Position numbers and translations under genes: made by a program
Shown: positions 331-60,855 of the stretch, piece by piece
Layout: every line of letters starts with the position of its first letter
How positions within the stretch are numbered: the first letter of the stretch is position 1
From: Bacteroidales bacterium
GTDB taxonomy: Bacteria; Bacteroidota; Bacteroidia; Bacteroidales; P3
Length of the DNA: 64,000 nt
Direction: 5' to 3'
Assembly: GCA_017934545.1 (NCBI GenBank)
Contig: JAGBJI010000005.1
Location: 1-64,000 of the forward strand
The notes under the pieces: model-generated
Told to the model about the DNA's origin: nothing
Database searches by the model: none
What the model saw: the letters and a program-made list of their open reading frames with translations, nothing else

Positions 331-455
331 TTTGGTTTTCGCCCTTTGCGAAAAGAGTTTGAAAAAAACCTATTTTTTTGCCTTAAAAAAATAGGTTTTT
401 TGGGTCAAAAAATCACATTTTTTTGGGATTACTTTCGCAAAGGGCGGAAACCAAA
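331..455. repeat. intergenic element 1: inverted-repeat arms around three 22-23 bp A-tract/T-tract units
   Basis: Arms 331-353 and 433-455 are 23 bp long and complementary at all but one position. Between them are three units of A-run, core and T-run with A-runs starting at 362, 385 and 407 (pitch 23, 22) and cores CCTA, TAGG and TCACA. The last 28 bp (428-455) recur almost unchanged in the elements near 13119-13146 and 22844-22871. It lies downstream of ychF. The rest of the 1-636 spacer is AT-rich; 116-176 may hold a decayed copy, and I see no gene there. Confidence 0.75.
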
Positions 456-571
456 AGGCATTGGGCGGAATTTTTATCATAAAGGGCTGCAACAGAGCGG
501 TTTTTTATTCAAAGAAAAAAGAAAACCCGCCTGATAAAAAAAGAAAAACGAAGTAAAAAATTAAAAAAAGG

Positions 572-611
572 CAAAAAAAAAGATTCCCTTTTAAAGAAAA
601 AAGGGAATCTT
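572..611 (-). terminator. rho-independent terminator of tig-ychF
   Basis: Perfect 13 bp stem (580-592 with 599-611, loop of 6) lies just past the ychF stop on the minus strand. It is followed in that direction by a run of T (A-run 573-580 on the plus strand). Confidence 0.85.
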
Positions 612-636
612 AATACATGAAAAAACAAGTAAATAA

Positions 637-1740
637 TTACACATTAAATCTGAAATGCATAATATCTCCGTCCTGTACCGCATAGTCTTTGCCCTCTACG
701 GAAATTTTTCCTGCCTCGCGGCATGAAGCTTCGCTGCGGTAACGGATGTAATCGTCGTATTTGATGACTTCGGCACGGATAAAACCTTTCTCAAAGTCGG
801 AGTGTATCACGCCCGCACATTGAGGTGCTTTGCTGCCTTTATAAAAAGTCCAAGCGTGAGTTTCCTTCGGTCCGGTAGTGAAGAAAGTTTGCAGGTTAAG
901 GATGTGGTATGCCGCACGTATCAAGCGGTTGACGCCGCTCTCCTGCAAGCCCAACTCCTGCAAAAACATCTGTTTTTCTTCGTAGGTTTCCAATCCTGCA
1001 ATGTCTTCTTCGGTTTTGGCTGCAATGACAAGCACGTCGGCGTTTTCCTCCTGTGCCATTACCTTGACCTTTTCTGTATAAGCATTGCCCGAAACGCACG
1101 AGGCTTCGTCCGTATTGCACACATAGATAACGGGTTTGGAGGTCAAAAGGCACAGTTCTTTGGACAAGGCCTGCTTTTCTTTGTTGTCAAAGGTGACGGT
1201 GCGTGCATTTTTGCCCTGCAACAACACCGCACGGTAAGCATCCAACACTTCCAAAAGGTCTTTGGCCTTTTTGTCGCCGCCCGATTTAGCCGATTTCTCC
1301 GTCTTGGCGTAACGGTTTTCTATGGTTTCAAGGTCTTTGAGTTGAAGTTCCAAATCAATGACTTCCTTGTCACGCAAGGGGTCAACACTGCCGTCAACGT
1401 GGACAATATTGTCATTGTCAAAACAACGCAACACCTGTATAATGGCGTCGCATTCACGTATGTTGCCCAGAAACTTATTTCCCAGCCCCTCGCCTTTAGA
1501 TGCACCTTTGACCAAACCCGCAATGTCCACTATTTCCACCGTTGCGGGTATAATCTTTTCGGGTTTGTCAATTTCGGCCAACGCATTGATACGTTCGTCA
1601 GGCACATTGATAACCCCTACATTGGGTTCTATGGTGCAAAAAGGGAAGTTGGCTGCCTGTGCTTTGGAGTTTGACAGGCAGTTGAACAGAGTGGATTTGC
1701 CTACATTGGGCAATCCGACTATACCGCACTTGAGTGACAT
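637..1740 (-). CDS. ychF: redox-regulated ATPase YchF (OLA1 family)
   Basis: A 367-residue P-loop NTPase of the Obg-related YchF/OLA1 family, which prefers ATP, binds ribosomes and acts in stress responses. The N-terminus carries the P-loop GLPNVGKST. The G3 region is [14 protein letters not shown]. The G4 position is NTDE rather than NKxD, which is the family's hallmark for ATP preference. A TGS-type domain forms the C-terminus (about residues 280-365). Length is normal for the family (about 363). It begins 3 bp after the tig stop, so it is almost certainly co-transcribed with tig, and a strong terminator follows it. Confidence 0.97.
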
Positions 1741-1743
1741 GGG

Positions 1744-3198
1744 TTAAAACAATGACGGTTGTTGTTCTTCTTCTGTTTTCTTCTCTGCTTTGGCAGTTCT
1801 CTTTTTGGCAGGTTTCTTTTCAGTTGCTTCCGCAGGGGACATTTGTTTAAGGAATTCGTCCATGTTTAGTTTCTTTTGCGAAACCTTCATGTTTTGTTTC
1901 AAAACGTCCGTGATTTTGCGGTCAAACAAATAGTTGTAAACCTGTTTTGACTGCTCTCTTTCGTTAAGCATGTTGCGTGCAACGCTGTCCAAGTGTTGTT
2001 CTCTCTCTTTTTTCTGCTCTTCGCTCTCATCCGGCATTGCAGGGAAGTAGGACGGAAGCAATTCGGTCTTATAGTAATTGATTATATCTTCGTCGCCGAC
2101 TTTTATGCCGTATTTTTGTGCTATTTCGCCCTCAATCATCTGCCAACGGATGCCGTCCAAATATTTGTCAAAGTTGTCTTCAATCTTTTTGGCGTCGTCT
2201 TCGCTGTTCGCTGTTGCCTTAAGCCAACGTTTCAAAAACTCTTCAGGCAATTCCATCTTGATACTCTTAACCAATTCTTCGCTTGCCTTGTTCAAAAAAT
2301 ATGTGTCGGCTTCACGTGCATATGCTTTGCAAAGTTCGTCTTTGCATGCCTGTGTGAACGATGCTTCGTCTTTGATGTTTTTATCGGCATATACCCTTGA
2401 GAAAAACTCTTCGTTCATCTCGGCAGGGGTCATACGCTGTATGGTTTCTACGGTAAACTGTGCGTCGGAGTTGAATTCCTTGGCTTCGTCCGTGCTTTTG
2501 CGTAAGAAAGATGCCAAATGGTTAGCGTCTTTCAACGCTTTGGCAGGTTTGAACGTGATAACGCTGTCTTTTTTCTTGCCGATGAACTGTTTTTTTACAG
2601 TAGCCAACGCTATGCGTTCAACATACATCGTGGTCTTGGTGTCAATGCCGTTTTCCATAGGCGCACCGTCTTCGCCCAACTGCACCAAGCGGCCGTATAC
2701 CATGTCTTTTTCGCCTATGGTTTCGGGCGATTCCACTTTGCCGAAACGCATTCTTTGGTCTTCAATGAACTTGTCCAACATCTGTTGTGTAGGTTCTATG
2801 TCGTAAAGGTCTGCTTTGTGTTTGGAAAGGTTCAACTCAAACTCGGGTTGGCATGCTATGTCAAAATAGAACGTAAACTCCGTGTCTTTATCCCAATCGG
2901 CTTTCGGAGTTTTTTCATCGTTTGCCAACGGTGAACCCAAAACCTTTATCTTGTTTTCGTCTATAAACTTGTACAAACCGTCCGACATAGCCCGTTCAAT
3001 CTGCTGTGCTTTGAGTTGGGTTCCGTACATCTTTTTGACCATTGACACAGGAACCTGTCCGGGACGGAATCCCGGTACGCTCATCTTCTTTCTCTGTTCT
3101 TTGAGTTGTTTTTCTACTTGAGCCTGATAGTCGTTAGCCTCTATCTCCACCTTGACCAAAGAGGTCAAATTTCCGTTTTTTTCCTGACTTACTTTCAT
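1744..3198 (-). CDS. tig: trigger factor-like ribosome-associated chaperone
   Basis: A 484-residue trigger factor, the ribosome-bound chaperone that meets nascent chains. The N-terminal ribosome-binding domain (about 1-150) carries the signature region [10 protein letters not shown] near residue 42. A divergent FKBP-like middle part (about 155-245) and a long helical C-terminal domain follow. The extreme C-terminus is a Lys/Glu-rich tail (about 455-484), longer than in proteobacterial homologues. The minus-strand -7 box at 3253-3260 lies 55 bp upstream. It is the first gene of a tig-ychF operon. Confidence 0.93.
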
Positions 3199-3252
3199 TT
3201 TATTCTTTTACTTATATATTTTAATTCTCTCTTTTTTTACCTTTATTTATAT

Positions 3253-3260
3253 CAAATATA
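3253..3260 (-). promoter_or_regulatory. Bacteroidetes -7 box for tig
   Basis: The minus strand reads TATATTTG, matching TAnnTTTG, 55 bp before the tig start. No clear -33 element was assigned in this T-rich region. Confidence 0.5.
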
Positions 3261-3291
3261 TTCTTTGATTTTTTATCTTCTTTTTTTATTA

Positions 3292-3397
3292 TTTGAATGT
3301 ACCTTTTAATTCTTGTGATTTGCTTTTTTATTTATTTTGAATGTATTTTTAATTCCTTTTTTTCTTGTTTCTTTTTTATTTGAATGTATTTTTAATT
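3292..3397. repeat. three direct copies of a ~19 bp motif at 43-44 bp spacing
   Basis: The sequence TTTGAATGTA followed by TTTAATT or a close variant begins at 3292, 3336 and 3379, in the T-rich spacer upstream of tig. The spacing of 44 and 43 bp is about twice the 22 bp pitch of the other spacer repeats in this window. Low sequence complexity makes chance a real possibility. Confidence 0.5.
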
Positions 3398-3446
3398 GTT
3401 TAAAATCTTGTTTTTTCTGTAATAAAAGGCGGAATAAAGACGGGTT

Positions 3447-9320: not shown

Positions 9321-12300
9321 ATGAATAAGAACCAAAGTATGTTTAAGAAATTTTTCCTTGCAACAGTATTGCTTCTAAATACTTTGTGGGGGGGGGTATT
9401 TGCACAGATATTAACGGACAGTGAAAACGGATTGAAATACTATGCAATCTCCGGACAAGCCAACAATTGCGAAGTACAAAAAGATTCCGACAAGGAAAGT
9501 TATGTTATTCCTGCTACAATAACGGTAGGGACAAAGACTTATACTGTAACACGTATAAGCAATTTCAAAGAAAATACCGTAATGACAAGTATCACCTTGC
9601 CTGAAAATTTGAAAGAAATATGGGACAATACTTTTCAAAAATGTAGTTCTTTGACAAGTATCGTCATTCCGTCTAAAGTAAAAGAGATTAGAGCCAATGC
9701 GTTTCAGAACTGTACGGCGTTAAGTTCCGTTACATTCAGTGAAAGGGAGGAATCTTCGCTGACACTTGGCAGCAATGCGTTTCAAAACACTGCGATAACT
9801 CAAATCACAATACCTGAAGGACCGACTTTTTTGCCCACAAGCTTATTTCAAGGTTGTAATAAACTGACAAAAGTAAATATACCGTCAACTGCGGCAAGTA
9901 TCGGAACGTATTGTTTTTATGATTGCTCGGCTCTTGAAAGCATAGTTGTACCGTCAAGCGTTACAACTATAAGCGACCGTGCTTTCACAAACTGTACGTC
10001 GTTAAGTTCCGTTACATTGAACGAGGGATTGACTAAAATAGGACCTAATGCAAACGGTGAGGTGTTCAGAAATTGTTCTTCCCTGACTTCAATAACAATT
10101 CCGTCAACAGTTGAAAAAATAGGACAAGGCTGTTTCAGAGAAACAAAAATAGAAACATTAGACCTGTCAGAAACAAAACTCACGGAAATAAGTTCACATT
10201 TGCTTAACGGACAAAAATCTGTTACAACCGTTAAATTACCTCTTACCGTAACCCAAATAGGACAACAGGCATTTTTGAATTGCACGGCATTGACAACAAT
10301 TACGGGATTGAACAATGTTTCGGACTTTCAATTGGAAGCTTTAAGAGGTTGTACGGCATTGTCATCGGAAATAACCATTGAGGCTCCTGTAAAAAATTTA
10401 TCCGAAAGAGTGTTTTTCAGTTGCACATCACTGACTAAACTTTTTTTTACAAGTGAAACAGTAGTGGAAGGCAGAACCATCAAAAACGATTTAGTGAAAA
10501 ACTGTTCGTCTTTGAAAGAAATACAATTGCCTGCAGGCATGACATCCATACCTGAATCTTATTTTGAAAATTGCAGTTCGTTAACAACGGTCACACTTCC
10601 TGCTACCGTAACAACCATAGGCAATTCTGCTTTTAAAGGTTGTAAGTCTTTGGCATCACTTACGCTTCCTGACGGATTGACAACGATAGGTGAAAAAACT
10701 TTTCACAGTGCCGGACTGACAACTTTAAATATTCCTGTAAGCGTTACCTCAATCGGTTACGAAGCATTTTACGATTGTGACGATTTAGTTACCGTTACCA
10801 GCGACGAAAGAACTGATATAAGCACCGTGACACTCGAAGAGGAGATTTTCAAAGCATGCGACAAACTGCAAACCGTTACTTTGCCCGAAGGCATTGAAAC
10901 CCTGTCTAATCAAATGTTCAACAACTGCAAATCATTGGTTACTGTAAACATGCCAAATACTCTGACTTCTATCGGCGATGAAGTCTTCCAAGGCAGTACA
11001 ATTGCTTCTGCCGTAATACCTGACGGAGTTACATACATAGGATACCATGCTTTCCATTCCTGTACGGGATTGAAAAAACTTATACTATCAAAATCGTTGG
11101 AAACATGCGGCAACGAGCCGTTCGGAGCATGCACCTATTTGGAAGAGATATATCTTCCCGAGGGCTTGAAGAATATACCTGAACGTACATTCTACAGATG
11201 CGAAAGCCTTAAAGAAGTTGATTTTCCAAGTACAATAGAATTTATTGGCGAGAATGCTTTTCAGAAATGCGGACTAACGCTGTTGGTGCTTCACAGTATG
11301 ACACCGCCTACGGTTGAAGACGGAGCATTCAGCGATTGCCAAATAAAACAAATAAAATATCCTTGCACCGCAGTTGAAGCATACAAGTCTTTTGTTGCCA
11401 AAATCAAGGATGAATATCCTTCAATGAAAGAACCCGAACAAACTTATCTGGTCGTCAACGACATCAGCGAAGACGTTTACATGAACAACCACGATTGTTT
11501 CAAAATAGTTGCAGCCGACGAGGTGATAATAAGGGACGGAGGGTCGCTTTCGTTCAACGCTGACAACGAAGAAATTGTCAACGCAATAAAATCGGCTACG
11601 ATAAAAGTGGAACAAAATCTGAAAACCGAGAGTTGGAACTTGGTCGGTAACATAAGCAACAACGAAAATTACACATTTTTGGACAACAACCAAGGCCTTA
11701 CAAGCGGAAAAGCACACGACATGGCAGCCGTTAAATGGAACTATACCAAAAACGACTGGGGCGGTGACGGAGATGACGACGACGATTACTATGCCAAAGC
11801 CGAGGAAACATTCGGCGAAAACTATACTTCGGCATTTGTATGGCCTTTTGCAGGCGGATTGTTGGGCGATTATTCCGAATCCGAAGCCGCAAACGCCGAC
11901 GATTTGAACGACACTTACACCAAACTGTTGCACACGGCTGCAAAAGAGGAATTCAACAGCAAGTTAGAAGTCACTGCAACCAACACGGGCGAATATACCT
12001 ATACGCTGGATGAAAACACCATCAAAGGTTATTGGTACAGTCTGTACAACCCGTACTTCGGAAAAATCAAAGTAAAAGATTTCACTGATGAAAACGCCGT
12101 ACAAGGCAACTGTGTATATGTTTACGACGGCGGTGCATGGCAAATGCTTACTGCAACGGACGGCGAAATCAAGCCGGGTCAGGGATTTTTGGTGGCTTCC
12201 GAAACCTCCGAAGACAAAGGTGCAGCGGGCGATGAACTAAACATAACATTCAAACCGTCAATGCTTAAAAAAGTAGTTGCCGCAGGTACGGAGACAGTTA

Positions 12301-12965
12301 CAAGCAAAGAAGCTGTCAACTCACAGTTGATAACCTTGACTGCCCAAGCCAACGGAGTGAAACGTCAGGCTTTTGCGGTAAAATCCGACAACGGCAAAAA
12401 CGGTTTTGACGCCAACGACGCATATATTCTTTTCTCTTCCGAGAACGGGGACATGGTTGAGCCGTATTTCACCGTTGACAACCGCCGTTTGCAAACCAAT
12501 GTATTCAAAACGCTGCCTTACGTATGCCCGATAGGTTTCCGTGCAGGCAAAACATCAAACGTTGAGTTTACAATCAAAAACATACCCGACGGTATTGACG
12601 TGGCTATCGTTGATTTGACAACGGGCGAACAAACGGTTATGGATAACAATGTTTTCTCTTTCGTTGCCCAGCAGGGAAACAATTCCGGCAGATACGTATT
12701 GAAATTCTATGCGGGCGAAGTGTCGCTGCCAAGCGTTGAAAACGCTGCAGACAATATATGTATCCGCAACGAAAACCATCAGTTGTTCATCACCGCAGAA
12801 AACTTGCAGAGCGTAGACATCACCGACATGAAAGGACAAACGGTGATGCAAAAAACAGTGAGCGGAAACCACGCATCATTTGCTTTGGACAACGCAAGCG
12901 GAGTGTATGTAGTCAGAGTAAAAACCTCCGAGGGACAAAAATCGCAAAAAATAGTAATCAAATAA
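9321..12965 (+). CDS. BspA-like leucine-rich-repeat surface protein with type IX secretion tail
   Basis: A 1214-residue secreted protein. A signal peptide ends near residue 28 (VFA/QI). About residues 50-690 hold many LRR_5 (BspA or Treponema TpLRR) repeats of the form F..C.SL..I.IP..V..IG..AF. An acidic stretch GDGDDDDD lies near residue 815. The last ~75 residues match a type A type IX sorting domain (LFITAENLQSVDITDMKGQ ... GVYVVRV ... KIVIK). BspA-like proteins bind host or matrix proteins. Codons 23-26 (W-G-G-V) contain nine consecutive G (9388-9396), a possible phase-variation tract. A terminator follows. Confidence 0.93.
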   Translation: MNKNQSMFKKFFLATVLLLNTLWGGVFAQILTDSENGLKYYAISGQANNCEVQKDSDKESYVIPATITVGTKTYTVTRISNFKENTVMTSITLPENLKEIWDNTFQKCSSLTSIVIPSKVKEIRANAFQNCTALSSVTFSEREESSLTLGSNAFQNTAITQITIPEGPTFLPTSLFQGCNKLTKVNIPSTAASIGTYCFYDCSALESIVVPSSVTTISDRAFTNCTSLSSVTLNEGLTKIGPNANGEVFRNCSSLTSITIPSTVEKIGQGCFRETKIETLDLSETKLTEISSHLLNGQKSVTTVKLPLTVTQIGQQAFLNCTALTTITGLNNVSDFQLEALRGCTALSSEITIEAPVKNLSERVFFSCTSLTKLFFTSETVVEGRTIKNDLVKNCSSLKEIQLPAGMTSIPESYFENCSSLTTVTLPATVTTIGNSAFKGCKSLASLTLPDGLTTIGEKTFHSAGLTTLNIPVSVTSIGYEAFYDCDDLVTVTSDERTDISTVTLEEEIFKACDKLQTVTLPEGIETLSNQMFNNCKSLVTVNMPNTLTSIGDEVFQGSTIASAVIPDGVTYIGYHAFHSCTGLKKLILSKSLETCGNEPFGACTYLEEIYLPEGLKNIPERTFYRCESLKEVDFPSTIEFIGENAFQKCGLTLLVLHSMTPPTVEDGAFSDCQIKQIKYPCTAVEAYKSFVAKIKDEYPSMKEPEQTYLVVNDISEDVYMNNHDCFKIVAADEVIIRDGGSLSFNADNEEIVNAIKSATIKVEQNLKTESWNLVGNISNNENYTFLDNNQGLTSGKAHDMAAVKWNYTKNDWGGDGDDDDDYYAKAEETFGENYTSAFVWPFAGGLLGDYSESEAANADDLNDTYTKLLHTAAKEEFNSKLEVTATNTGEYTYTLDENTIKGYWYSLYNPYFGKIKVKDFTDENAVQGNCVYVYDGGAWQMLTATDGEIKPGQGFLVASETSEDKGAAGDELNITFKPSMLKKVVAAGTETVTSKEAVNSQLITLTAQANGVKRQAFAVKSDNGKNGFDANDAYILFSSENGDMVEPYFTVDNRRLQTNVFKTLPYVCPIGFRAGKTSNVEFTIKNIPDGIDVAIVDLTTGEQTVMDNNVFSFVAQQGNNSGRYVLKFYAGEVSLPSVENAADNICIRNENHQLFITAENLQSVDITDMKGQTVMQKTVSGNHASFALDNASGVYVVRVKTSEGQKSQKIVIK
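9388..9396. repeat. G9 tract inside the signal-peptide codons of the BspA-like gene
   Basis: Nine G encode part of Trp-Gly-Gly-Val at residues 23-26. Gain or loss of one G would shift the frame and abolish the 1214-residue protein. Length-variable G tracts are a known phase-variation mechanism; variation here is inferred, not seen. Confidence 0.6.
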
Positions 12966-12974
12966 ATATTTAAA

Positions 12975-13019
12975 CGGCGGTAAGTATCAGCCCTTTGCTG
13001 TCTTACCGCCGCTTTTTTT
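12975..13019 (+). terminator. rho-independent terminator of the BspA-like gene
   Basis: A perfect 10 bp stem CGGCGGTAAG with its complement (12975-12984 and 13002-13011) is followed by a T-run. Confidence 0.88.
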
Positions 13020-13030
13020 GAAAACGCCGC

Positions 13031-13146
13031 CGCCCTTTCTGAAAAGGACGGCAAAAAAATCACATTTTTTCACTGAAAAAACCTATTTTTTTGAGGCAAA
13101 AAATGTGATTTTTTTCAAATTACTTTCGCAAGGGGCAAAAACCAAA
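13031..13146. repeat. intergenic element 2 (three A-tract/T-tract units)
   Basis: A-runs begin at 13053, 13076 and 13098 (pitch 23, 22) with cores TCACA, CCTA and TGTGA. The first and third units are reverse complements of each other. The right flank 13119-13146 is nearly identical to those at 428-455 and 22844-22871. The left arm is degenerate. It lies between the convergent ends of the BspA-like gene and cinA. Confidence 0.75.
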
Positions 13147-13171
13147 CGCCCAAGGGCTGCAATATTATGGC

Positions 13172-14431
13172 TTAAGGCTGCGGAGCGGAGAGTTTTTTCC
13201 ACATCTCAAACAAGGCTGCATTGCTTGTACGGTCAATAAAATTGGAGCGGACGGTTTTGTAACAGTTTTTAATCACCGTAGTCTTTCCGTCTTTTGCGGC
13301 AACGGCTATATAAACCGTGCCTATCTCCGTATCGGTTCCGTCCGAATCGGGACCCGCAAGGCCTGTAGTTGCTATGCAATAGTCAGTGTCAAAAATCTTC
13401 AGTGCGTTTTCCGCCATCTCTGCGGCAACCTGACGGCTTACGGCATGAAACTCTTTGAGTGTCTGCTCTTTTACTTTCAGCACATTGTGTTTTATTTCGT
13501 TACTGTATGCCACGCAAGAGCCTTTAAAATATGCCGAAGCACCGTCGTTCAAAGTTATAAGATGTGCTATATTGCCTCCCGTACACGACTCCGCCGTGCA
13601 AACTGTTTTGCCTGCCGCTTTTAGCCGTTGGCCTATCATTTGGGCAAGGTTTTTGTCATCTTTGCTTACAACAAACTGTTTTATTTCTTCGGCCAACTCA
13701 TCAAAAAGTTCGTCCGTCTTTTTGCTTACCTGTTCCCTGTCGCCGCCTTTGGCTGTCAGACGCAATTTTATCATGCCCGCATCGGGCAGATATGCCAAAG
13801 AAAATGCGGCAACGTTTTGGCGGGACAGTTTTTTTTCAAACTCTTCCAACCTGTCGGAAAGAAAACTTTCGCCTATGCCCGACACCAACAGCGTACGGTG
13901 TATAACGGTCTGCGGTTTGAAGTGGTTAAGTATTGTTTCCACCGCCTTGGGCATCATGGTTTCCATCTCAAAAGGTACGCCCGGCAGGGATATAACCAAT
14001 TTTCCGTCCTTATGGAAAATCATTCCCGGTGCAGTGCCTGTCGGATTGAAGATGATTCTACAACAATCGGGTACCATAGCCTGCGAACGGTTGGTCGCAG
14101 TGTACGGCAAATTGCGGGCAAGAAATATTTTCTCAACGTGCAGGCTTACTTCTTTGTTTTCCGTCAGGCGTCCGCCGAACATAGAGTTCAAACAGTTTTT
14201 GGTCACATCGTCCTTGGTCGGCCCTAATCCGCCTGTTATCAGCACCGCATCAGCACGGTGCAACGCCGCAGTGACCGCCTGTTCTATTGCCTTGTAATTG
14301 TCGCCCACCACAGTGATGTATCCTACATCTATCCCTGCATTGTTCAACGCCTTTGACATATACGAACAGTTGGTGTTGACCACCTGCCCTATCAAAAGCT
14401 CATCGCCTATATTTATTATCTCAACATTCAT
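13172..14431 (-). CDS. cinA: CinA family protein (nicotinamide mononucleotide deamidase / competence-damage protein)
   Basis: A 419-residue two-domain protein. The N-terminal MoCF-like domain (about 1-170) starts EIINIGDELLIGQVVNTN and has the VLITGGLGPTKDDVT loop. The C-terminal CinA domain (about 255-415) has TAESCTGGNIAHLIT, whose Ser/Cys region forms the NMN deamidase site, and ATTGLAGPDSDGT. It likely recycles NMN in NAD metabolism; the link to competence comes from Gram-positive homologues. Full length. A -7 box at 14540-14547 is the likely promoter. Confidence 0.95.
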   Translation of the reverse strand: MNVEIINIGDELLIGQVVNTNCSYMSKALNNAGIDVGYITVVGDNYKAIEQAVTAALHRADAVLITGGLGPTKDDVTKNCLNSMFGGRLTENKEVSLHVEKIFLARNLPYTATNRSQAMVPDCCRIIFNPTGTAPGMIFHKDGKLVISLPGVPFEMETMMPKAVETILNHFKPQTVIHRTLLVSGIGESFLSDRLEEFEKKLSRQNVAAFSLAYLPDAGMIKLRLTAKGGDREQVSKKTDELFDELAEEIKQFVVSKDDKNLAQMIGQRLKAAGKTVCTAESCTGGNIAHLITLNDGASAYFKGSCVAYSNEIKHNVLKVKEQTLKEFHAVSRQVAAEMAENALKIFDTDYCIATTGLAGPDSDGTDTEIGTVYIAVAAKDGKTTVIKNCYKTVRSNFIDRTSNAALFEMWKKLSAPQP

Positions 14432-14539
14432 ATGTCTTTATAAGTTTTTAAATATTGTTTTCAATAATTAATTAACATTTTTATCGGACATTTATTTCTT
14501 TTTTAACGGAAAAATATATTTTAATTGTCTATTTACATG

Positions 14540-14547
14540 CAAAAATA
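14540..14547 (-). promoter_or_regulatory. candidate -7 box for cinA
   Basis: The minus strand reads TATTTTTG, 109 bp before the cinA start. The leader would be long, so another start site is possible. Confidence 0.4.
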
Positions 14548-14600
14548 TACAAAATACCTGTTTTCTTTGCTGCATTCAGTCCGCCAATATATATTTTACT

Positions 14601-14608
14601 TACTTTTG
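14601..14608 (+). promoter_or_regulatory. -7 box for the frameshifted lipoprotein gene
   Basis: TACTTTTG lies 48 bp before the likely start ATG at 14656. Confidence 0.55.
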
Positions 14609-14655
14609 CACGATTTAATAACAAAATTATGTATTCATCAAAAAATTTAAAGATT

Positions 14656-15381
14656 ATGAAAAGAATCAATCTTAATGCAGGTTTGATAATTTTATCATTG
14701 GTTTGCTGTACATTGTTTGTGGCTTGCAAAGATGACGATGATAAAAAGGATAAAAAACTCCGCAAAGAACCGAATTAGTTTCTTATCAATCCTTGTTTGA
14801 TATGTGCGGAAAAAACCTGCCCAAGCGGAAGCAGAGTTGTTAGCCGACGGTTATACACATTACGGTTACACCAATTCCGCTCCTATTGTGTTTGAAAATT
14901 ATATAAAAGTAAAGATAATGACACTTCGGCTTATTCTTTGGGAACGTACGACAATTATGTCATAGCGTCTTCATTTTATGCTACGGTCAAAGACCGTGAC
15001 ACCGTAATTGCTGCACTTAAAGCAAAATGCAACGAAGGTTTCAATCTTGTAGGGGAAGAAAACGTTGAAAACTTTGAAGCATATATTGTGTCCGTAAGCG
15101 GAAACACTGACAATTATTCCGATTACCCTGCATTCTTTTCTGCATTGTCCGCCATCAATCCGTACGATTTAAGCGAATGCCACGCATCTATAGATTTCGA
15201 TAACGATGACAAATTGGTCGCAATCAACTATGAAAAACGTTCGTTTAACTCTTTGTTCGGCAAGGAATCAAAAGCAACTTTTTCCGACGGCAAGATATAC
15301 ATAACCGCTTTTGATATCAGCATGCTAAACAAGAAATCCGCACCCGCATCAATCAGAAATGCAGTCAAAAAAATGTTGTAA
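14656..15381 (+). pseudogene. frameshifted lipoprotein gene
   Basis: The ATG at 14656 begins a clear lipoprotein signal (MKRINLNAGLIILSLVCC then TLFVACKDDDDKK) but stops at 14776. Protein-like sequence then continues in a second frame (ELVSYQSLFDMCGK), a third (AQAEAELLADGYTHYGYTN to about 14905), and returns to the first frame (KDNDTSAYSLGTYDNYVIA) to the stop at 15379-15381. The three shifts run in the same direction and fit three single-base deletions at or near A-runs, so the frame is regained. The repaired product would be about 242 residues of unknown family. Either a decaying gene or a stretch with three homopolymer sequencing errors. An alternative upstream ATG is at 14629. Confidence 0.7.
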
Positions 15382-15468
15382 TCTTTTCATGTTTTTACAA
15401 TCCGACGGCGTTAAGTTTGTTTTTAATTTGTTTTTTCATTGATTTTGTAACCGCTTTTTATAAAAATA

Positions 15469-15504
15469 AAAAAGAGTGCGCATGAAAAAATGCACACTCT
15501 TTTT
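15469..15504. terminator. bidirectional terminator
   Basis: A 15 bp stem with one mismatch (15469-15483 and 15490-15504) has A-run and T-run ends, so it can serve both the minus-strand EF-G-like gene ending at 15524 and the plus-strand lipoprotein remnant. Confidence 0.85.
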
Positions 15505-15523
15505 GTTTGTATATTGTTCAGTG

Positions 15524-17662
15524 TTATTCTTCGTCCTTGCTTGCCTCTTCGTAAGCTTTAAGCAATGCGTTTTGAACGTCGGTAGGTACGGCTTGGTATT
15601 CGCTGTATTTCATTGAGAACATACCGCGTCCCGAAGTCAACGATGACAAAGAGGTGGAATAACGGTTCATCTCTGCCAAAGGTGCTTTTGCTTTGATAAC
15701 TTGATGGTTTCCTTTTGAGTCCATACCCATGACAATTGCCCTTCTGCCTTGCAAATCCGTCATAACGCCGCCCATCATATCTGCAGGTACGTTTACTTCC
15801 AAGTCGTATACAGGTTCCAAAATCTTAGGTCCTGCATTTTTAAAGGCTTCTTTGAATGCGTTTCTGCCCGCAAGTTTGAATGCCATTTCGTTCGAATCCA
15901 CCGGGTGCATCTTTCCGTCAAACACGTTGACAACTATATCTCTTGCATACGAACCTGTCAACGGTCCTTCTTCCATCTTCTCCATTATACCCTTCAATAT
16001 AGCCGGCATAAACCTTGCGTCTATCGCTCCGCCGACAATACAGTTGTTGAATATAAGCTTTCCGCCCCACTGCAACTCTATTGTTTCGGTTCCTCTTATA
16101 GGATACTTGGTTTGGTTAGGCATTCCCTCGTAGTAAGGCTGTATATAAAGATGAACTTCTCCGAACTGACCTGCTCCGCCCGACTGTTTTTTGTGACGGT
16201 ACATAGCTTCGGCTTCCTTGGTTATGGTTTCTCTGTAAGGAATCTTCGGTGAATAGAATTCAGCCTTTACTTTATATACATTGTCCAAGTACCATTTCAA
16301 CGTGTTTACATGAAATTCGCCCATTGCAGCGACAATTGTCTGCTTGGCTTCGCGTGCTATATAGTTCTGCATTGCAGGGTCGTGCGAAGTATAATCGTTC
16401 AACGCTGCTCCCAACTTCTCGTCTTCGGAAGATTCTACTGCACGTATTGCAGTGGTATATATAGGCTCTGGATATTCTACAGGTTTTACCTCAACGCCTG
16501 CATTCTTTGCTGCAGTCAATGTAGCACCCAACTTAACGTCTTTAAGTTTTATCGTTGAGATTATATCTCCTGCACAGGCTTTGTCAACAGTTGTACGGTT
16601 CTTTCCTGCGTTTATGTTTATCTGTGATATTCTTTCTTTTGAAGAGTTAGTGCTGTTGACAATATCAGCACCCGTTGCTATCTCGCCTTCAAGTATTTTT
16701 ATGTATGTAACCTCACCTACGTGCTGTTCGTTGGCTGCTTTGAACACATAGCCTACGAAATCGCCGCCGTTGTTGTAAGAAACTTTGTTGCCGTCTTTGT
16801 ATTCCAGTCTTGATTGTGATTCGTCTGCCGAAGGCACATTGTTGGATACGAACTCCATCATTCTGTCTACGCCTTTGTTTTCTTTGGCTGCTATACACAA
16901 AACAGGATATATGCTTCTTGTTGCTATACCTTCTTTCAATCCTTTACGCATGTCTTCCACCGACAAATCGCCTTGGTCAAAAAATTTCTCCATCAACTCG
17001 TCATCACCCGTAGCTGCGTTCTCAACCAATTGCGAACGCAATTCTTCGGCTCTGTCTTTTTCCTGTTCAGGTATATCGCTTATCTGTGCTTTTCCGTTGC
17101 CTGCGGAATAGGTGTACATCTTCTGTGTAAGCAAATCTATGAAAGAGTCAAATCCCGTGCCTGCGTTGACAGGGTATTGTACAAGAGTAACTTTTTCGCC
17201 GAAGTTTTCTTTCAACGATGCTATTGTTTGGTTGAAATCAGCTTTCTCCGCATCCAATTGGTTTACGGCAAAAATAACCGGAGTGTGCATTTTTTCGGCA
17301 TACATCATTGCCAATTCCGTACCTACTTCCACACCGTTTTGTGCGTTAACGGCAACTACCGCCGTTTCAACTGCACTGTAAGCCGATACTATCTCGCCCT
17401 GAAAATCGGTAAAGCCCGGAACGTCTATTACGTTTATCTTTTTGTCATTTACCTCTGCATAAAGCACCGTGCCGACTGCCGATGATTTTCTTTCTATCTC
17501 TATATCCCTGTAGTCAGACAAAGTGTTGCCTGCTTCAACAGTTCCCATTCTGTTTATAATTCCTGCATTCAAGGCTATACTTTCAGCCAATGTAGTTTTA
17601 CCGCTTTTGTTTCCTCCCACCAAAGCGATGTTTTTGATTTGTGATGTGTTGTAAACTTTCAT
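15524..17662 (-). CDS. elongation factor G-like GTPase (EF-G2 type)
   Basis: A 712-residue translational GTPase of EF-G architecture. G1 is GGNKSGKTT near residue 16 and G3 is DVPGFTDF near residue 79. G4 is NQLD instead of the canonical NKxD. Domains II to V follow, with a domain IV region IPYRETITKEAEAMYRHKKQ near residue 465 and a C-terminal TSLSSLTSGRGMFSMKYSEY. It belongs to the paralogous EF-G-like group rather than the main translocase FusA. Its role is not settled; ribosome recycling or a regulatory role is possible. The promoter -7 box is at 17707-17714. Confidence 0.88.
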   Translation of the reverse strand: MKVYNTSQIKNIALVGGNKSGKTTLAESIALNAGIINRMGTVEAGNTLSDYRDIEIERKSSAVGTVLYAEVNDKKINVIDVPGFTDFQGEIVSAYSAVETAVVAVNAQNGVEVGTELAMMYAEKMHTPVIFAVNQLDAEKADFNQTIASLKENFGEKVTLVQYPVNAGTGFDSFIDLLTQKMYTYSAGNGKAQISDIPEQEKDRAEELRSQLVENAATGDDELMEKFFDQGDLSVEDMRKGLKEGIATRSIYPVLCIAAKENKGVDRMMEFVSNNVPSADESQSRLEYKDGNKVSYNNGGDFVGYVFKAANEQHVGEVTYIKILEGEIATGADIVNSTNSSKERISQININAGKNRTTVDKACAGDIISTIKLKDVKLGATLTAAKNAGVEVKPVEYPEPIYTTAIRAVESSEDEKLGAALNDYTSHDPAMQNYIAREAKQTIVAAMGEFHVNTLKWYLDNVYKVKAEFYSPKIPYRETITKEAEAMYRHKKQSGGAGQFGEVHLYIQPYYEGMPNQTKYPIRGTETIELQWGGKLIFNNCIVGGAIDARFMPAILKGIMEKMEEGPLTGSYARDIVVNVFDGKMHPVDSNEMAFKLAGRNAFKEAFKNAGPKILEPVYDLEVNVPADMMGGVMTDLQGRRAIVMGMDSKGNHQVIKAKAPLAEMNRYSTSLSSLTSGRGMFSMKYSEYQAVPTDVQNALLKAYEEASKDEE

Positions 17663-17706
17663 CTTTTAATATATTTTTGATTATTTATCTTTGACTAATG
17701 AGTTTG

Positions 17707-17714
17707 CAAATTTA
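17707..17714 (-). promoter_or_regulatory. -7 box for the EF-G-like gene
   Basis: The minus strand reads TAAATTTG, 45 bp before the start codon. Confidence 0.55.
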
Positions 17715-17818
17715 CGCAATTATTACATATGATAAAAATTTTATCGCAAAAATATTTTAAAAATCACTTTATTCCGCATTTTTTAAAAATGCCTTTTGCG
17801 GAAAAACCGCCGCCGTTT

Positions 17819-17949
17819 CACATTTTGTTTTTGCCGATTCAGAAAAGAGTTTCAAAAAAAGCAGGTTTTTTGCATCAAAAAAAGTGGTTTTTTCGGTCAA
17901 AAAACCACTTTTTTCCGCAACTAAAGCGTCGTTCGGCAAAAACAAAGTG
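17819..17949. repeat. intergenic element 3 (three units, GCAGG/GTGG/CCAC cores)
   Basis: Inner arm match TTTGTTTTTGCCGA at 17824-17837 pairs exactly with 17933-17946. A-runs begin at 17854, 17877 and 17899 (pitch 23, 22), with cores GCAGG, GTGG and CCAC. The left arm and the cores, in order, are shared with the element at 60730-60855. It sits between divergent genes, upstream of both the EF-G-like gene and the glycosyltransferase. Confidence 0.78.
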
Positions 17950-18023
17950 CGAATCGGCGTAAATAAAGCGAAGAAAAGCACGGCATAATTATAAAAACAT
18001 GCCTTTTAAACGGAATAAATTCG

Positions 18024-18031
18024 TATTTTTG
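18024..18031 (+). promoter_or_regulatory. -7 box for the glycosyltransferase gene
   Basis: TATTTTTG lies 73 bp before the start at 18105. Confidence 0.5.
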
Positions 18032-18104
18032 CACTCAATAATTGTTTTTTTATTATTGAACGCTATTGTGCAATCAGGCACAACCGTAACAACAATATGG
18101 CATT

Positions 18105-19220
18105 ATGAACATTGTACATATAACAACGGTGCATCAAAGATTTGATTCACGTATTTTTTACAAGCAATGTCTTTCCCTGAAAGAACATTCTTACCGTGTG
18201 ACGCTTATAGTTGCCGACGGCAAGGGCAATCAAACTGTAAACGGCGTGGATATAATAGATATAGGAGCGTACACCAACAGGGCAAAGCGGCTGATTGTTG
18301 CCTCCCGCAAGGCAGTGCAAACGGCGTTAAAACTCAATGCCGATTTGTATCATTTCCACGACCCCGATTTACTTGTGCAGGCACGCAAACTTTGCAAGCA
18401 TGCAAAGGTCGTGTTTGATTCACACGAAGATTTTCCCAAGCTTATGTTGCAACGGGATTATATTCCCAACGTTTTACGAAAAGTTTTGTTCCGCACGGCT
18501 ACGCATATTGAACGCACGACTTACAAAAAATTGGCCGGTGTTGTGACGGCTACGGACAACATAGCACAAAAGTTTCTGTCTTACGGGGCGAACGATGTCA
18601 TTGCCGTTAAGAACTATCCCGTCATAAACACGGACAACTGTGTAAAAAAGGAAAAAGACAATGGTTTACCGTTCACCGCATGCTATGTAGGGGGCTTGAC
18701 ACAGGTGCGGGGCGTTGAACAAATGATAAAATCTTGTCACAAGGCGGGCGTACATTTGATATTGGCGGGACCTTTTGACGATGAAAACTTTTACCGACAG
18801 ATGCAATCCCTGCCCGAATGGGAATGTGTTGAATATTTGGGCGTAGTTCCGCACGATGAATTGGTGCAAAGGGTTTATGCCAAAGCGGATATAGGGTTGA
18901 ATATGTTGCTTGCCGCACCCAACCATACTGATGCCGTTCCTATCAAACAGTTGGAATACATGTCCCAAGCCCTGCCCGTGATTGCCACCAAGCATATTAA
19001 ATTTTGTACGGAGGTAACCGAAAAGGAACATTGCGGCATATTGGTAACGCCCGAAGACATTCAGCAGTGTGCAGAAGCCATAACATATATGAAAAACCAC
19101 GAAGAAGAAAGAATTGAAATGGGTGTCAACGGCCGCCGTGCAGTACAACAAACATACAATTGGAATACGGAAAAAGACAAGTTGATAAAGTTTTATGAAC
19201 GTTTGCTGAACAATCAATAG
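18105..19220 (+). CDS. glycosyltransferase family 4-type protein
   Basis: A 371-residue GT-B glycosyltransferase. The N-terminal half starts MNIVHITTVHQRFDSRIFYKQ and has the DLYHFHDPDLL segment near residue 79. The C-terminal nucleotide-sugar half has EYLGVVPHDELVQRVYAKADIGLN and the EX7E-like region IKQLEYMSQALPVIAT. It probably adds a sugar to a lipid-linked or surface polysaccharide; donor and acceptor are unknown. It is a single gene with its own promoter. Confidence 0.9.
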   Translation: MNIVHITTVHQRFDSRIFYKQCLSLKEHSYRVTLIVADGKGNQTVNGVDIIDIGAYTNRAKRLIVASRKAVQTALKLNADLYHFHDPDLLVQARKLCKHAKVVFDSHEDFPKLMLQRDYIPNVLRKVLFRTATHIERTTYKKLAGVVTATDNIAQKFLSYGANDVIAVKNYPVINTDNCVKKEKDNGLPFTACYVGGLTQVRGVEQMIKSCHKAGVHLILAGPFDDENFYRQMQSLPEWECVEYLGVVPHDELVQRVYAKADIGLNMLLAAPNHTDAVPIKQLEYMSQALPVIATKHIKFCTEVTEKEHCGILVTPEDIQQCAEAITYMKNHEEERIEMGVNGRRAVQQTYNWNTEKDKLIKFYERLLNNQ

Positions 19221-19292
19221 CACTTCTGCATTTTAACTTTGCATTTTAACGTAAAAACATTATGATTTTAATGCAATGTGAGTGAAAATTTG

Positions 19293-19300
19293 TAATTTTG
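19293..19300 (+). promoter_or_regulatory. -7 box for the small membrane protein-dnaG unit
   Basis: TAATTTTG lies 29 bp before the ATG at 19330. An ATG at 19282 would lie upstream of this promoter, which favours 19330. Confidence 0.6.
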
Positions 19301-19329
19301 CATTGCTTGAAATAAACAAAAAACACTGT

Positions 19330-19533
19330 ATGGGCGAATTTGTTTTGATATTAGCCGCAACTGCAATAGTTGTTTTGCTGTGCGGAATACTTATAGGAGT
19401 GAAGATAATCTTTCAGAAGAACGGAAAATTTTCACACACTTGTGCTTTTGATTGGGAAAAAGAGAAATGCAAGGATTGCAACGGCAATTGCAAGGACTGT
19501 ACTGTCAACATCGGCAAGATTAATGTAGAATAA
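19330..19533 (+). CDS. small Cys-rich single-span membrane protein
   Basis: A 67-residue protein: one hydrophobic span (about residues 3-25, FVLILAATAIVVLLCGILIG) followed by KIIFQKNGKFSHTC and a cluster CKDCNGNCKDC of four Cys plus one earlier Cys. The GVKIIFQKNGKF stretch resembles small membrane proteins common in Bacteroidales that I know only as hypotheticals. The Cys set could bind metal or an Fe-S centre, which is inference. The stop is 4 bp before dnaG, so the two are co-transcribed. Start 19330 is chosen over 19282 because of the promoter position. Confidence 0.75.
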   Translation: MGEFVLILAATAIVVLLCGILIGVKIIFQKNGKFSHTCAFDWEKEKCKDCNGNCKDCTVNIGKINVE

Positions 19534-19537
19534 AAAC

Positions 19538-21517: not shown

Positions 21518-21528
21518 TCTTACCTTAT

Positions 21529-22713: not shown

Positions 22714-22750
22714 TGCCTTTTGTGTTTTTACGTAAGCCTTTTGTGTTTTT

Positions 22751-22884
22751 GCCGCCGCCCCTTCGCACTTTAGTTTGAAAAAAAACTGATTTTTTGCCCC
22801 AAAAAACCTATTTTTTTGATACGAAAAATGTGATTTTTTTCAGATTACTTTCGCAAAGGGCAAAAACCAAATGACTTTGGGCGG
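22751..22884. repeat. intergenic element 4 (three units)
   Basis: A-runs begin at about 22778, 22801 and 22824 (pitch 22-23), with cores CTGA, CCTA and TGTGA. The right flank 22844-22871 is shared with elements 1 and 2. The left side GCCGCCGCCC also begins element 2. The outer arms pair only imperfectly. It fills the spacer between lipA and the MFS gene. Confidence 0.75.
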
Positions 22885-22903
22885 CAATAAAACGAAAAAG
22901 GGC

Positions 22904-23770: not shown

Positions 23771-23797
23771 AAAAGTATAATTTTCAATAATTTTTTG

Positions 23798-23805
23798 CAA
23801 AATTA
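23798..23805 (-). promoter_or_regulatory. -7 box for lipA
   Basis: The minus strand reads TAATTTTG, 28 bp before the chosen ATG. It is back to back with the plus-strand -7 box at 23819-23826. Confidence 0.6.
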
Positions 23806-23818
23806 CAAAATTTATCCA

Positions 23819-23826
23819 TACCTTTG
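23819..23826 (+). promoter_or_regulatory. -7 box for the secreted hydrolase gene
   Basis: TACCTTTG lies 27 bp before the start at 23853. The lipA -7 box is only 13 bp away on the other strand, so the two promoters' -33 regions must overlap. Confidence 0.6.
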
Positions 23827-23852
23827 CAAACGTATAACACGCAAAACATACA

Positions 23853-25163: not shown

Positions 25164-25352
25164 ATCTTTATTATATACAGAATTTCCCACATAAAATTCC
25201 GAATCTTAAAACGCAGAACATAACATTGCCATATTAAAAACAGTGTTGAGGCAATGCAATGCCGAAGTTTTTAGTATTGCAGGTGTTGTTTGCACCGAAA
25301 AAATAACGCATAATTTTTGCCAAAACAAAACATATTACCGCCGTTTTGCGTA

Positions 25353-25473
25353 TTGCTTTTGCCAAACGCTGCTTTGCTCACAAAAATACCCCCTCTTTTT
25401 ATCAAAAATACCCGGTATTTTCACTGAAAAAACCCCCTCTTTTTTCGGGTAAAGCGGCGTTTGGCAAAAGCAA
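25353..25473. repeat. intergenic element 5 (CCCCCTC type)
   Basis: Arms 25353-25375 and 25451-25473 are 23 bp with one mismatch. Inside are three A-tract/T-tract units with CCCCCTC, CCCGG and CCCCCTC cores at a 22-23 bp pitch. The interior is nearly identical, in the same orientation, to the element at 28251-28365. The two copies bracket the secreted-protein pair at 25543-28031. Confidence 0.82.
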
Positions 25474-25505: not shown

Positions 25506-25542
25506 GGTAATAAAAAAATATATTTTTACTGTTGTCTTTTGA

Positions 25543-28474: not shown

Positions 28475-28499
28475 CATATGACTTTAAATTCAAAAAACT

Positions 28500-40472: not shown

Positions 40473-40565
40473 TCTGAAACCGTTTTGTTTCGGACGGTTC
40501 AAAACTCGGTTTCAGACCGTCCGAAAGTATGTTTTGGACGGTTCAAAATTTACTTTCGGACGGTT
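40473..40565. repeat. array of four GGACGGTT motifs at ~22 bp
   Basis: GGACGGTT occurs in plus orientation at 40492, 40536 and 40558, and its near complement GACCGTCC at 40515, so centres step by 23, 21 and 22 bp. The 10 bp inverted pair TCTGAAACCG (40473) and CGGTTTCAGA (40507) lies at the left end. The array lies between the sirtuin stop and the HU-gene promoter. Confidence 0.72.
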
Positions 40566-48852: not shown

Positions 48853-48960
48853 CGCTGCCCCTTCTGAAAGTAAACACAAAAAAATCTGATTTTTTCATTC
48901 AAAAAACCTATTTTTTTGAGTGAAAAAACCTATTTTTTTTGACATTCTTTTCTAAAAAGG
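48853..48960. repeat. intergenic element 7 (three units, decayed arms)
   Basis: A-runs begin at 48878, 48901 and 48923 (pitch 23, 22), with cores TCTGA, CCTA and CCTA. The left flank CTGCCCCTTCTGAAAG resembles elements 2 and 4. The outer arms are poorly complementary. It lies between ackA and the membrane protein gene; the rest of the spacer is AT-rich. Confidence 0.7.
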
Positions 48961-48963
48961 CAA

Positions 48964-48992
48964 CAGCACTGCCGCTTTAGGCGGCAGTGCTG
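48964..48992 (-). terminator. terminator of the DPP11-pheT operon
   Basis: A perfect 12 bp stem (48964-48975 and 48981-48992, loop TTTAG) lies 20 bp past the minus-strand stop at 49012, followed in that direction by a T-rich stretch. Confidence 0.75.
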
Positions 48993-60163: not shown

Positions 60164-60170
60164 ACAATTA

Positions 60171-60207
60171 AAGGGGGACATCATTTTTACACAATGTCCC
60201 CTTTTTT
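60171..60207 (+). terminator. terminator of dnaE-queG
   Basis: A 10 bp stem (AAGGGGACAT type with one bulged G, and ATGTCCCCTT) followed by a T-run, 8 bp after the queG stop. Confidence 0.82.
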
Positions 60208-60211
60208 CCCG

Positions 60212-60285
60212 TGATCTAAGAAGGATTCGAACCTTCGACCTACTGCTTAGAAGGCAGTTGCTCTATCCAGCTGAGCTATTAGACC
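60212..60285 (-). tRNA. tRNA-Arg (anticodon TCT)
   Basis: A 74 nt cloverleaf on the minus strand. Acceptor GGTCTAA pairs with TTAGATC with one G-U; the anticodon loop is CTTCTAA between ACTGC and GCAGT, and the T arm carries GGTTCGAATCC. CCA is not encoded. Last of three tRNAs read from one promoter. Confidence 0.95.
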
Positions 60286-60302
60286 ATTCGTCCTTCTCAA
60301 AG

Positions 60303-60377
60303 TCGGGGTAGTAAGATTCGAACTTACGACCTCCACATCCCAAATGTGGCGCGATAACCGGACTACGCTATACCCCG
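60303..60377 (-). tRNA. tRNA-Pro (anticodon TGG)
   Basis: A 75 nt cloverleaf on the minus strand. Acceptor CGGGGTA pairs with TACCCCG; the anticodon loop is TTTGGGA between CCACA and TGTGG, and the T arm carries AGTTCGAATCT. CCA is not encoded. Confidence 0.95.
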
Positions 60378-60421
60378 TATATACACAATGAACATTCTTT
60401 TTCTCAAATCCTCTTTTTTTG

Positions 60422-60509
60422 CGGAGAATGGGGGATTCGAACCCCCGGTACCCTAATCGAGTACGACAGTTTAGCAAACTGTTGGTTTCAGCCACTCACC
60501 CAACTCTCC
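60422..60509 (-). tRNA. tRNA-Ser (anticodon GCT)
   Basis: An 88 nt class II tRNA with a long variable arm on the minus strand. Acceptor GGAGAGT pairs with ATTCTCC, the discriminator is G as expected for Ser, and the anticodon loop is TTGCTAA between ACAGT and ACTGT. CCA is not encoded. Confidence 0.95.
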
Positions 60510-60529
60510 GTATGGCTGATTTGGGATTG

Positions 60530-60537
60530 CAAAATTA
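60530..60537 (-). promoter_or_regulatory. -7 box for the tRNA cluster
   Basis: The minus strand reads TAATTTTG, 20 bp before the 5' end of tRNA-Ser. It would transcribe Ser, Pro and Arg tRNAs as one unit. Confidence 0.6.
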
Positions 60538-60729
60538 CAACAATTTTTATTACTGACAAAAAAAATTTGAAAAAAATTGAAATTTTATATGTTTTTTTGT
60601 GCCGCAATGCGTTTAAAGAATTGTGTTTTAAAAGAATTTCACTAAAAAAACAATACAGTGCATCCTAAAAAATTTTCCGCTGAAACTGAAAAATTTATGC
60701 CTAAACGAATAAGATTTTTGCCGAAGTAA

Positions 60730-60855
60730 AAAAGGCTTTTGCCGATTCAGAAAAGAGGAATGAAAAAAGCAGGTTTTTTACATCAAAAAAAGTGGTTTTT
60801 TACTCAAAAAACCACTTTTTTTCTGAATTGTTTTCTGAATCGGCAAAAACCTTTT
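60730..60855. repeat. intergenic element 8 (three units, GCAGG/GTGG/CCAC cores)
   Basis: Arms 60730-60754 and 60831-60855 are 25 bp with one mismatch. A-runs begin at 60763, 60785 and 60806 (pitch 22, 21). The core order GCAGG, GTGG, CCAC and the left arm match element 3 at 17819-17949. It lies between the tRNA cluster and the phospholipase D-like gene; an open frame running through it is not coding. The rest of 60510-61001 is AT-rich. Confidence 0.82.

Follow-up and report, generated by a model that had tools for sequence, protein, structure and literature searches.

Why do so many spacers of one Bacteroidales genome carry the same short ladder of A-runs and T-runs, and what in this ladder is being kept? 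The question arises from a 64,000-nucleotide stretch of a Bacteroidales bacterium (contig JAGBJI010000005.1; the whole stretch is referred to as the window), which corresponds to C4:7441-71440 of a genome of 2.38 Mb (G000). A preliminary description of the window had recognized eight intergenic elements, each built from three units of A-tract, core and T-tract and most of them enclosed by inverted-repeat arms. This observation is confirmed, and the phenomenon is larger than noted: arrays of this kind are dispersed over the genome and shared by three species, and what is kept in them is helical phase together with symmetry, the 5-bp cores and linkers being nearly free. The helical spacing is kept while the sequence differs between copies and between species, which suggests that the cell reads geometry rather than letters. 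We propose, with a probability of about 0.42, that the arrays are orientation-free DNA scaffolds whose shape and helical phase would be what is recognized, a DNA-wrapping protein being one possible reader, and that homogenization would act on them within each species.

The array census of G000 refers to 1,161,989 bp, or 55% of the genome without contig C7; this contig duplicates C4, does not differ from the window over the 60 kb compared, and was included only in the two counts so marked below. Spacers were defined by the longest-ORF (open reading frame) gene calls of this analysis, not by annotation. Class I arrays were detected through their flanks only, using a matrix built on G000 copies that had first been found by their A/T runs. 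A total of 46 flank pairs were located exactly 63 bp apart, and the interior of these copies reads A6 N5 T6 N5 A6 N5 T6 N5 A6 N5 T6, with a step of 11 bp. The 36 columns of the six A6 or T6 blocks are conserved at 0.91-1.00, and the other 27 columns (N5 stretches plus two edge columns) at 0.37-0.83. A wider flank-only search of G000, with gaps of 61-65 bp and more sequence, gave 89 pairs: 62 with the exact frame, 20 with an array shifted by one base or of class II/IV, one with a family V array, and six (scores 14.1-17.0) without array. An array was also present within all 34 flank pairs of G001 (eight in the exact frame) and within 15 of the 16 pairs of G009 (one in the exact frame), both members of the genus set of 14 genomes (G000-G013, some incomplete). 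Pairs outside the exact frame were sorted by reading.

The arms follow a similar order. In G000 each short palindrome of the arms (TTT-GCG-AAA or TTT-CTG-AAA) has its centre 21.5 bp away from the outer A/T units, and the flank consensus is of the GCC/GGC type. Among the 146 half-elements of G000, GCC read towards the centre begins at a distance from the element centre of 51 bp in 104, of 72 bp in 79 and of 93 bp in 82; the corresponding distances of 50, 71 and 92 bp were found in 53, 45 and 37 of 68 half-elements in G001 and in 20, 13 and 16 of 30 in G009. Outside the A/T array, a period of 21.0 fits best in both G000 and G009, and one of 19.0 in G001. Conservation of the arms, which are mosaics of a few modules, drops outward in steps and leaves no sharp ends. 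Since the arms are phased too, a class I copy as a whole is a symmetric scaffold of about 190 bp, with six A6/T6 blocks 11 bp apart at the centre and GCC/GGC blocks 21 bp apart in the arms.

A total of 154 arrays of at least three units were identified in G000 (76 of class I, 51 of class III, 16 of class II and 11 of class IV), or about one array per 7.5 kb. The classes differ in core vocabulary: TAGG, TCACA, TCAGA, TGTGG and their complements in class I, GCAGG and GTGG in class II, and CCCCCTC and CCCGGTA in class IV. Within 110 arrays, the centre-to-centre pitch was 21.0-22.5 bp for 236 of 263 unit pairs, three or four units were present in 106, and the distances between A-run starts previously described as typical, 23 and then 22 bp, hold for many. 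The window alone contains seven arrays of at least three units in 22 spacers against none in 100 dinucleotide shuffles, and the 421 spacers examined in G000 contain 138, compared with 0.15 on average (maximum 1) in 20 such shuffles, so that the pattern is far more frequent than in shuffled spacers. Matches to the forward pattern exceeded those to a reversed-pattern control by 53 to 4 and by 548 to 179 (both including C7); for the three-unit pattern, the numbers were 218 to 0 in G001 and 80 to 1 in G009, overlapping matches being counted apart. Among 108 arrays, 97 fall in spacers between ORF-based gene calls. The arrays of the window are as follows.

331-455: class I element; array 362-424; cores CCTA/TAGG/TCACA; ungapped arm match 24/28.
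13031-13146: class I element; array 13053-13115; cores TCACA/CCTA/TGTGA; flanking genes convergent; weak arm match.
17819-17949: class II element; array 17854-17914; cores GCAGG/GTGG/CCAC; between divergent genes; arm match 15/16.
22751-22884: class I element; array 22778-22840; cores CTGA/CCTA/TGTGA; between tandem genes (major facilitator superfamily transporter, lipA).
25353-25473: class IV element; array 25382-25445; cores TACCCCCTC/TACCCGGTA/CCCCCTC; arm match 24/28; similar stretches present in G009, G001 and G004.
28251-28365: class IV element; array 28277-28339; cores as in 25353-25473; arm match 25/28.
31558-31645: class III array of four CATATG units.
40492-40565: family V array of GAC-[CG]-GTC type units at 22-bp pitch, with TTTCTGAAA on the left.
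48853-48960: class I element; array 48878-48940; cores TCTGA/CCTA/CCTA; flanking genes in tandem; weak arm match.
60730-60855: class II element; array 60763-60822; cores GCAGG/GTGG/CCAC; arm match 25/28; between a minus-strand tRNA cluster (60211-60509) and a plus-strand gene.

The eight elements of the preliminary description were all found where it had placed them, and its list is correct as far as it goes, the four-unit CATATG array and the GACCGTC-type array at 40492-40565 having been missed. The single build attributed to the eight holds, but they split into three subfamilies (I, II and IV). Their arms had been classified as clear in five and decayed in three, in agreement with ungapped matches of 24/28, 15/16, 24/28, 25/28 and 25/28 for the former and 9/12, 13/24 and 11/16 for the latter; copies thus range from near-perfect to decayed in their arms, but not in the interior. 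The mechanically called ORF 60792-62087 overlaps the element at 60730-60855, and its true start is therefore probably located further in.

The arrays had been described as intergenic, located between genes of all orientations and not simply terminators, and this description stands. A/T arrays (classes I, II and IV) were found in 42 of 220 tandem, 18 of 84 convergent and 30 of 116 divergent spacers, without clear orientation bias, and none of the 29 terminator-like sites detected by a scan of 12600-32400 lies within the five elements there. Perfect G+C-rich hairpins directly adjoin two elements, at 25474-25503 and 48961-48990; the former was not flagged by the terminator scan, which requires a T-run, and the latter is located outside the scanned stretch. 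Class III arrays avoid convergent spacers (1 of 46 vs 33 of 207, P = 0.009; by another count, 4 of 84 vs 44 of 336). With native length and gene orientation held in the expectation, only two spacers of G000 contain both an A/T array and a CATATG array, against 11.0 expected (P = 0.0003). A role as evenly spaced markers of topological domains was also considered, and was rejected on the basis of the spacing of the arrays.

Orthologous spacers were compared between G000 and its relatives. Among 25 orthologous spacers (21 with G001 and four with G009), an array was present in both species in seven, only in G000 in three, only in the relative in two, and in neither in 13 (P = 0.0065; P = 0.035 when both spacers were required to be at least 110 bp). 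Another detector gave seven, four, two and 12, respectively (P = 0.016). One G000 spacer, C5:157674-157838, which is counted twice, holds a class I array with cores TAG/TAG/TCAGA, and its orthologues hold CTA/CTG/CCC in G001 and CTC/CTG/CTC in G009. The core vocabulary is different in each species, with CTG, CCC and CTA in G001, and CTC, CTG and GAG in G009. Other spacers with class I in G000 carry a ATCNCGCAGAT or ACGCC/GGCG array in G001. By eye, the relative holds another phased array in two of the three spacers scored as occupied only in G000, and the G009 spacer orthologous to 31558-31645 has no CATATG array and instead two TTTTC-N-GAAAA units 21 bp apart. A clean-looking empty counterpart was found only for the family V array at C1:229761-230057, where the filled and the apparently empty spacer measure 296 and 145 bp; the other "empty" orthologous spacers hold another array.

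A pitch of 21-22 bp is common to families that are unrelated in sequence. Since the stricter detector (31 of 36 matches) is unsuited to variable cores, spacers were scored for at least two repeated 7-mers at 21-23 bp, with six control distance triples. In G000, G001 and G009, 7-mer repeats in spacers peak at 21-22 and 42-44 bp, and the numbers of positive spacers were 147 of 420 (controls 5-12), 85 of 336 (3-7) and 25 of 104 (0-8), respectively. These include families of the GACCGTC, TTTTC[AT]GAAAA and GCAAAAC[CG]GTTTTGC types in G000, and of the ATCTGCGAT and AAACGCCGTTT types in G001. Furthermore, the three TTGAATGTA repeats in the window spacer 3293-3413 lie about 44 bp apart, or about four helical turns.

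The pitch extends beyond the genus. G000 itself is assigned to an uncultured genus of Bacteroidales: its EF-G2 (elongation factor G2) protein scores above the cut-off of a Bacteroidota model, and the nearest named loci, many of which are from rumen or gut metagenome-assembled genomes labelled "Bacteroidales bacterium", show 75-88% EF-G2 identity. Using 78 of 80 named loci (L112 and L128 were left out), 10 of 52, 10 of 46 and 39 of 314 spacers were positive at 21-23 bp at three levels of relatedness, against controls of 0-3, 0-3 and 4-16 at distances other than 42-44 bp; the 42-44 bp distance itself was likewise elevated in the first set (8) and the second (6), and not in the third (9). Nine stretches from other genera of the family gave 10 of 51 (controls 0-3). 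Outside the genus, the A/T pattern was not clearly above control in 27 genomes and gave no match in most of them (G016, 2 vs 0; G022, 6 vs 4; G034, 35 vs 100). Three viral contigs also matched the three-unit pattern, and were judged by reading to be unrelated rather than carriers: two have a high G+C content, direct repeats that are short and ORFs that overlap, and one contains ACACCATTTTTGGTGT repeats. Long runs of 21-bp units, with several families in succession, were seen in L124 (155-575) and L125 (6078-6475), and about nine similar 21-bp units in L207 (18062-18253). In more distant Bacteroidales, L182 (18236-18346) and L183 (20-62) carry 11-bp tandem units in spacers, and 11 bp is the commonest repeat distance in 55 more distant loci.

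As to how such a scaffold might be read, curvature is the first candidate for the A/T class, in which A-tracts recur at the helical repeat. In a wedge model, the predicted bend is 88-122 degrees per 84 bp, compared with 32-36 for shuffled sequences and 40 for array-free spacers; the modelled bend is greatest at a tract pitch of 10-11, and strong curvature is predicted for classes I-III. Curvature may thus be how the A/T class works, whereas the property common to all families is the two-turn pitch of palindromic units. A-tract clusters and helical-phase periodicities share the phased A-tracts and predicted curvature (PMC3940949, PMC7537859), but are statistical genome-wide signals, in contrast to the discrete repeat family with invariant frame described here. 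Recognition of the array would depend on the narrow minor grooves and the bend of its phased A-tracts, and the reader would be a dimerically binding, DNA-wrapping or DNA-bending protein, such as gyrase, as reported for BIME-2 (a bacterial interspersed mosaic element), or an HU-like protein; the neighboring genes would be insulated from each other in torsion or structure. A DNA-wrapping protein is a fair candidate for such a reader. According to PMC6379681, the motif preferred by gyrase is 130 bp long and has phased G/C content, and BIME-2 are described there as intergenic, strong gyrase sites independent of transcription; PMC12324340 reports a G/C periodicity of 10-11 bp for the gyrases of three species. 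The likeness lies in a degenerate, helically phased pattern of G/C and A/T content over more than 100 bp on both sides of a centre; the difference is that phased A-tracts are central here and that the block distances are unlike a simple 10.5-bp alternation. Seven HU-family matches in G000, of which two are strong, say little.

Copying must take place, because the copies lie in unrelated spacers and share modules. The end motif TTC[AT]GAA is present in 30-54% of the flanks of families I-V in G000 and in 10-23% for families VI and VII and unsorted arrays, against a background of 2% per 48 bp of array-free spacer; it is nearly absent from G001, where AACG[CG]C/G[CG]CGTT takes its place (25-50% of flanks vs 8%). 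Such shared end motifs suggest homogenization within species. The copies would spread within the genome and be homogenized by recombination or template switching among arrays, and as a result each species would come to have its own cores and end motifs. If this reading is right, a large share of spacers (186 of 420 with an A/T array or a 21-23 bp repeat) is under selection for geometry rather than letters, and the arrays would offer, in an uncultured lineage, a test provided by nature in many copies of the part that DNA shape and helical phase play in organizing bacterial chromosomes. A wider generalization, which we regard as rather doubtful, is that Bacteroidales mark the borders of transcription units by phase-coded scaffolds in which two-turn pitch and dyad symmetry would be preserved and the letters could change freely between species, with different families in the same role, so that one per spacer would suffice; if true, these borders would form a chromosome-wide code for insulation or wrapping that is invisible to ordinary motif searches. 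Puzzling repeats such as BrickBuilt of Porphyromonas gingivalis might also be joined to one general rule, if the scaffold reading is right.

Several observations weigh against the scaffold reading. The A/T pattern gives only 0-8 matches in 11 of the 13 genus relatives, seven of which give none, so that classes come and go and the A/T class is dispensable. Bending cannot be the shared property, because no curvature is predicted for the other 21-23 bp families: only 1 of 45, 0 of 16, 2 of 31 and 3 of 31 of their arrays fell below the 5th percentile of background, and curvature as a common property, which holds for A/T and CATATG arrays, fails for the other families of G001, G009 and the named loci. 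In G001 the avoidance between families does not reach significance (2 vs 3.6, P = 0.24). For "other" families in G000 (with CATATG arrays, 0 vs 5.6 expected, P = 0.0003; with A/T arrays, 3 vs 8.2, P = 0.015), a 60-bp mask placed around the A/T and CATATG arrays biases the result. Spacing along contigs is no more regular than random placement in spacers. The orthologous test consists of 25 pairs, including one G000 spacer counted twice and one weak G000 array with two short repeats, and the flank matrix is mildly circular, having been trained on copies found by A/T runs. As to gyrase, the fit to its motif is loose because GCC and A/T blocks do not stand in simple antiphase, and the A/T-rich site was the unwrapped one in a gyrase structure study (PMC12393610).

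The chief competitor, which we judge somewhat unlikely, is a selfish, non-autonomous repeat resembling a MITE (miniature inverted-repeat transposable element), whose copies would insert where a spacer permits it, and whose internal array would be the binding site of the mobilizing enzyme and have no host function. It would explain the number of copies (154 in 1.16 Mb), almost all of them in spacers of their own, end motifs common to several families, as shared terminal repeats would give, the filled and apparently empty spacers of the family V case, and the lack of the A/T type in most genus relatives. On the other hand, no boundary pair showed an excess of direct repeats outside the arms, and no target duplication was seen at any consistent boundary; conservation fades stepwise, as described above, and the interior frame stays intact while arms, cores and linkers diverge. 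The Y1 transposase (Y1_Tnp) of the RAYT (REP-associated tyrosine transposase) type was found in none of the 14 genus genomes, some of which are incomplete, and DDE_Tnp_1 was absent from G000, the one genome searched for it; other transposase families were not searched. The mobile repeat previously suggested is therefore supported as to its dispersed copies, but not as to mobility of the BrickBuilt kind.

With no target duplication, sharp end, Y1 or DDE_Tnp_1, the element is not filed as BrickBuilt, REP/BIME (REP, repetitive extragenic palindromic sequence) or MITE; it is an interspersed bacterial repeat apart from them, and BrickBuilt is a parallel, not a matter of membership. BrickBuilt consists of 23-nt direct repeats without spacer in 1 to 22.8 copies, with long leader and tail segments and IS5-like 12-nt ends (PMC4596501), always intergenic and in 19 copies in one strain. 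It resembles the present arrays in occurring in Bacteroidales, in intergenic location, in units of about two helical turns (23 nt), in outer inverted ends and in dispersed copies. The arrays here differ in having three or four quasi-palindromic units in a fixed frame, a pitch of about 22 with variable cores and linkers instead of spacer-free direct repeats, species-specific cores and no IS5-like ends; the BrickBuilt end GAGACCTTTGCA has no exact match in the whole genome and matches at eight places with one mismatch, compared with 154 arrays in half of the genome. REP/BIME sequences and REPINs (REP doublets; PMC3733652, PMC2817692, PMC3116915) are likewise imperfect palindromes in many intergenic copies, as found here, with regular spacing, both orientations and mosaic structure; unlike these RAYT-associated repeats, the present units are A/T-tract palindromes in an 11/22-bp frame, in genomes where Y1 was not detected. 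The TAACTGA arrays of Beggiatoaceae, cyanobacteria and five Bacteroidetes are also abundant short intergenic repeats with an unexplained role, but are 7-nt direct repeats, mostly just upstream of start codons in one genome (PMC4679880), whereas the arrays here are palindromic with a two-turn pitch. Among the titles and the beginnings of abstracts of the open-licence literature, nothing was recognizable as these arrays; most subscription papers were outside this scope.

It is improbable that the arrays are operators, in which each quasi-palindrome would bind a dimeric repressor or regulator, with three or four adjacent sites as in phage operators and one regulator per family. The units here are quasi-palindromes at two-turn pitch, and the avoidance of convergent spacers by class III is as expected of promoter-linked sites. 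The A/T arrays, however, are equally common in convergent spacers, the copies of class I and class III in 1.16 Mb number 76 and 51, and the cores of class I are too variable for readout of bases.

An element acting in transcripts as hairpin or terminator is considered very improbable. Inverted arms and alternating A/U runs could pair, but pairing of cores and linkers does not exceed chance, and the A/T classes show no orientation preference. Complementary core pairs had been described, and they exist as a vocabulary, since common cores occur in both orientations (TCAGA 14 and TCTGA 11; CTC 13 and GAG 11), but not within copies: cores 1 and 3 are complementary in 8 of 50 copies, not beyond the chance expectation of 5.3 (P = 0.14), neighboring cores of G000 class I less often than chance (4 vs 10.1, P = 0.011), those of G001 in 3 against 7.4 expected, and linkers in 0 of 50. 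A function as RNA hairpin is thus not supported by the complementarity of cores and linkers, and only tRNAs of the window matched Rfam at the gathering threshold.

Chance or drift in an AT-rich genome (about 40% G+C) is negligible as an explanation, being refuted by the shuffle counts and the 7-mer distance test, in which distances of 21-23 bp stand far above neighboring distances, and a small control of 50 kb of E. coli K-12 gave 0 of 16 spacers.

Apart from the arrays, the window encodes at 9321-12965 a large leucine-rich-repeat protein with a type IX secretion sorting domain and a HupY-like match below the model cut-off.

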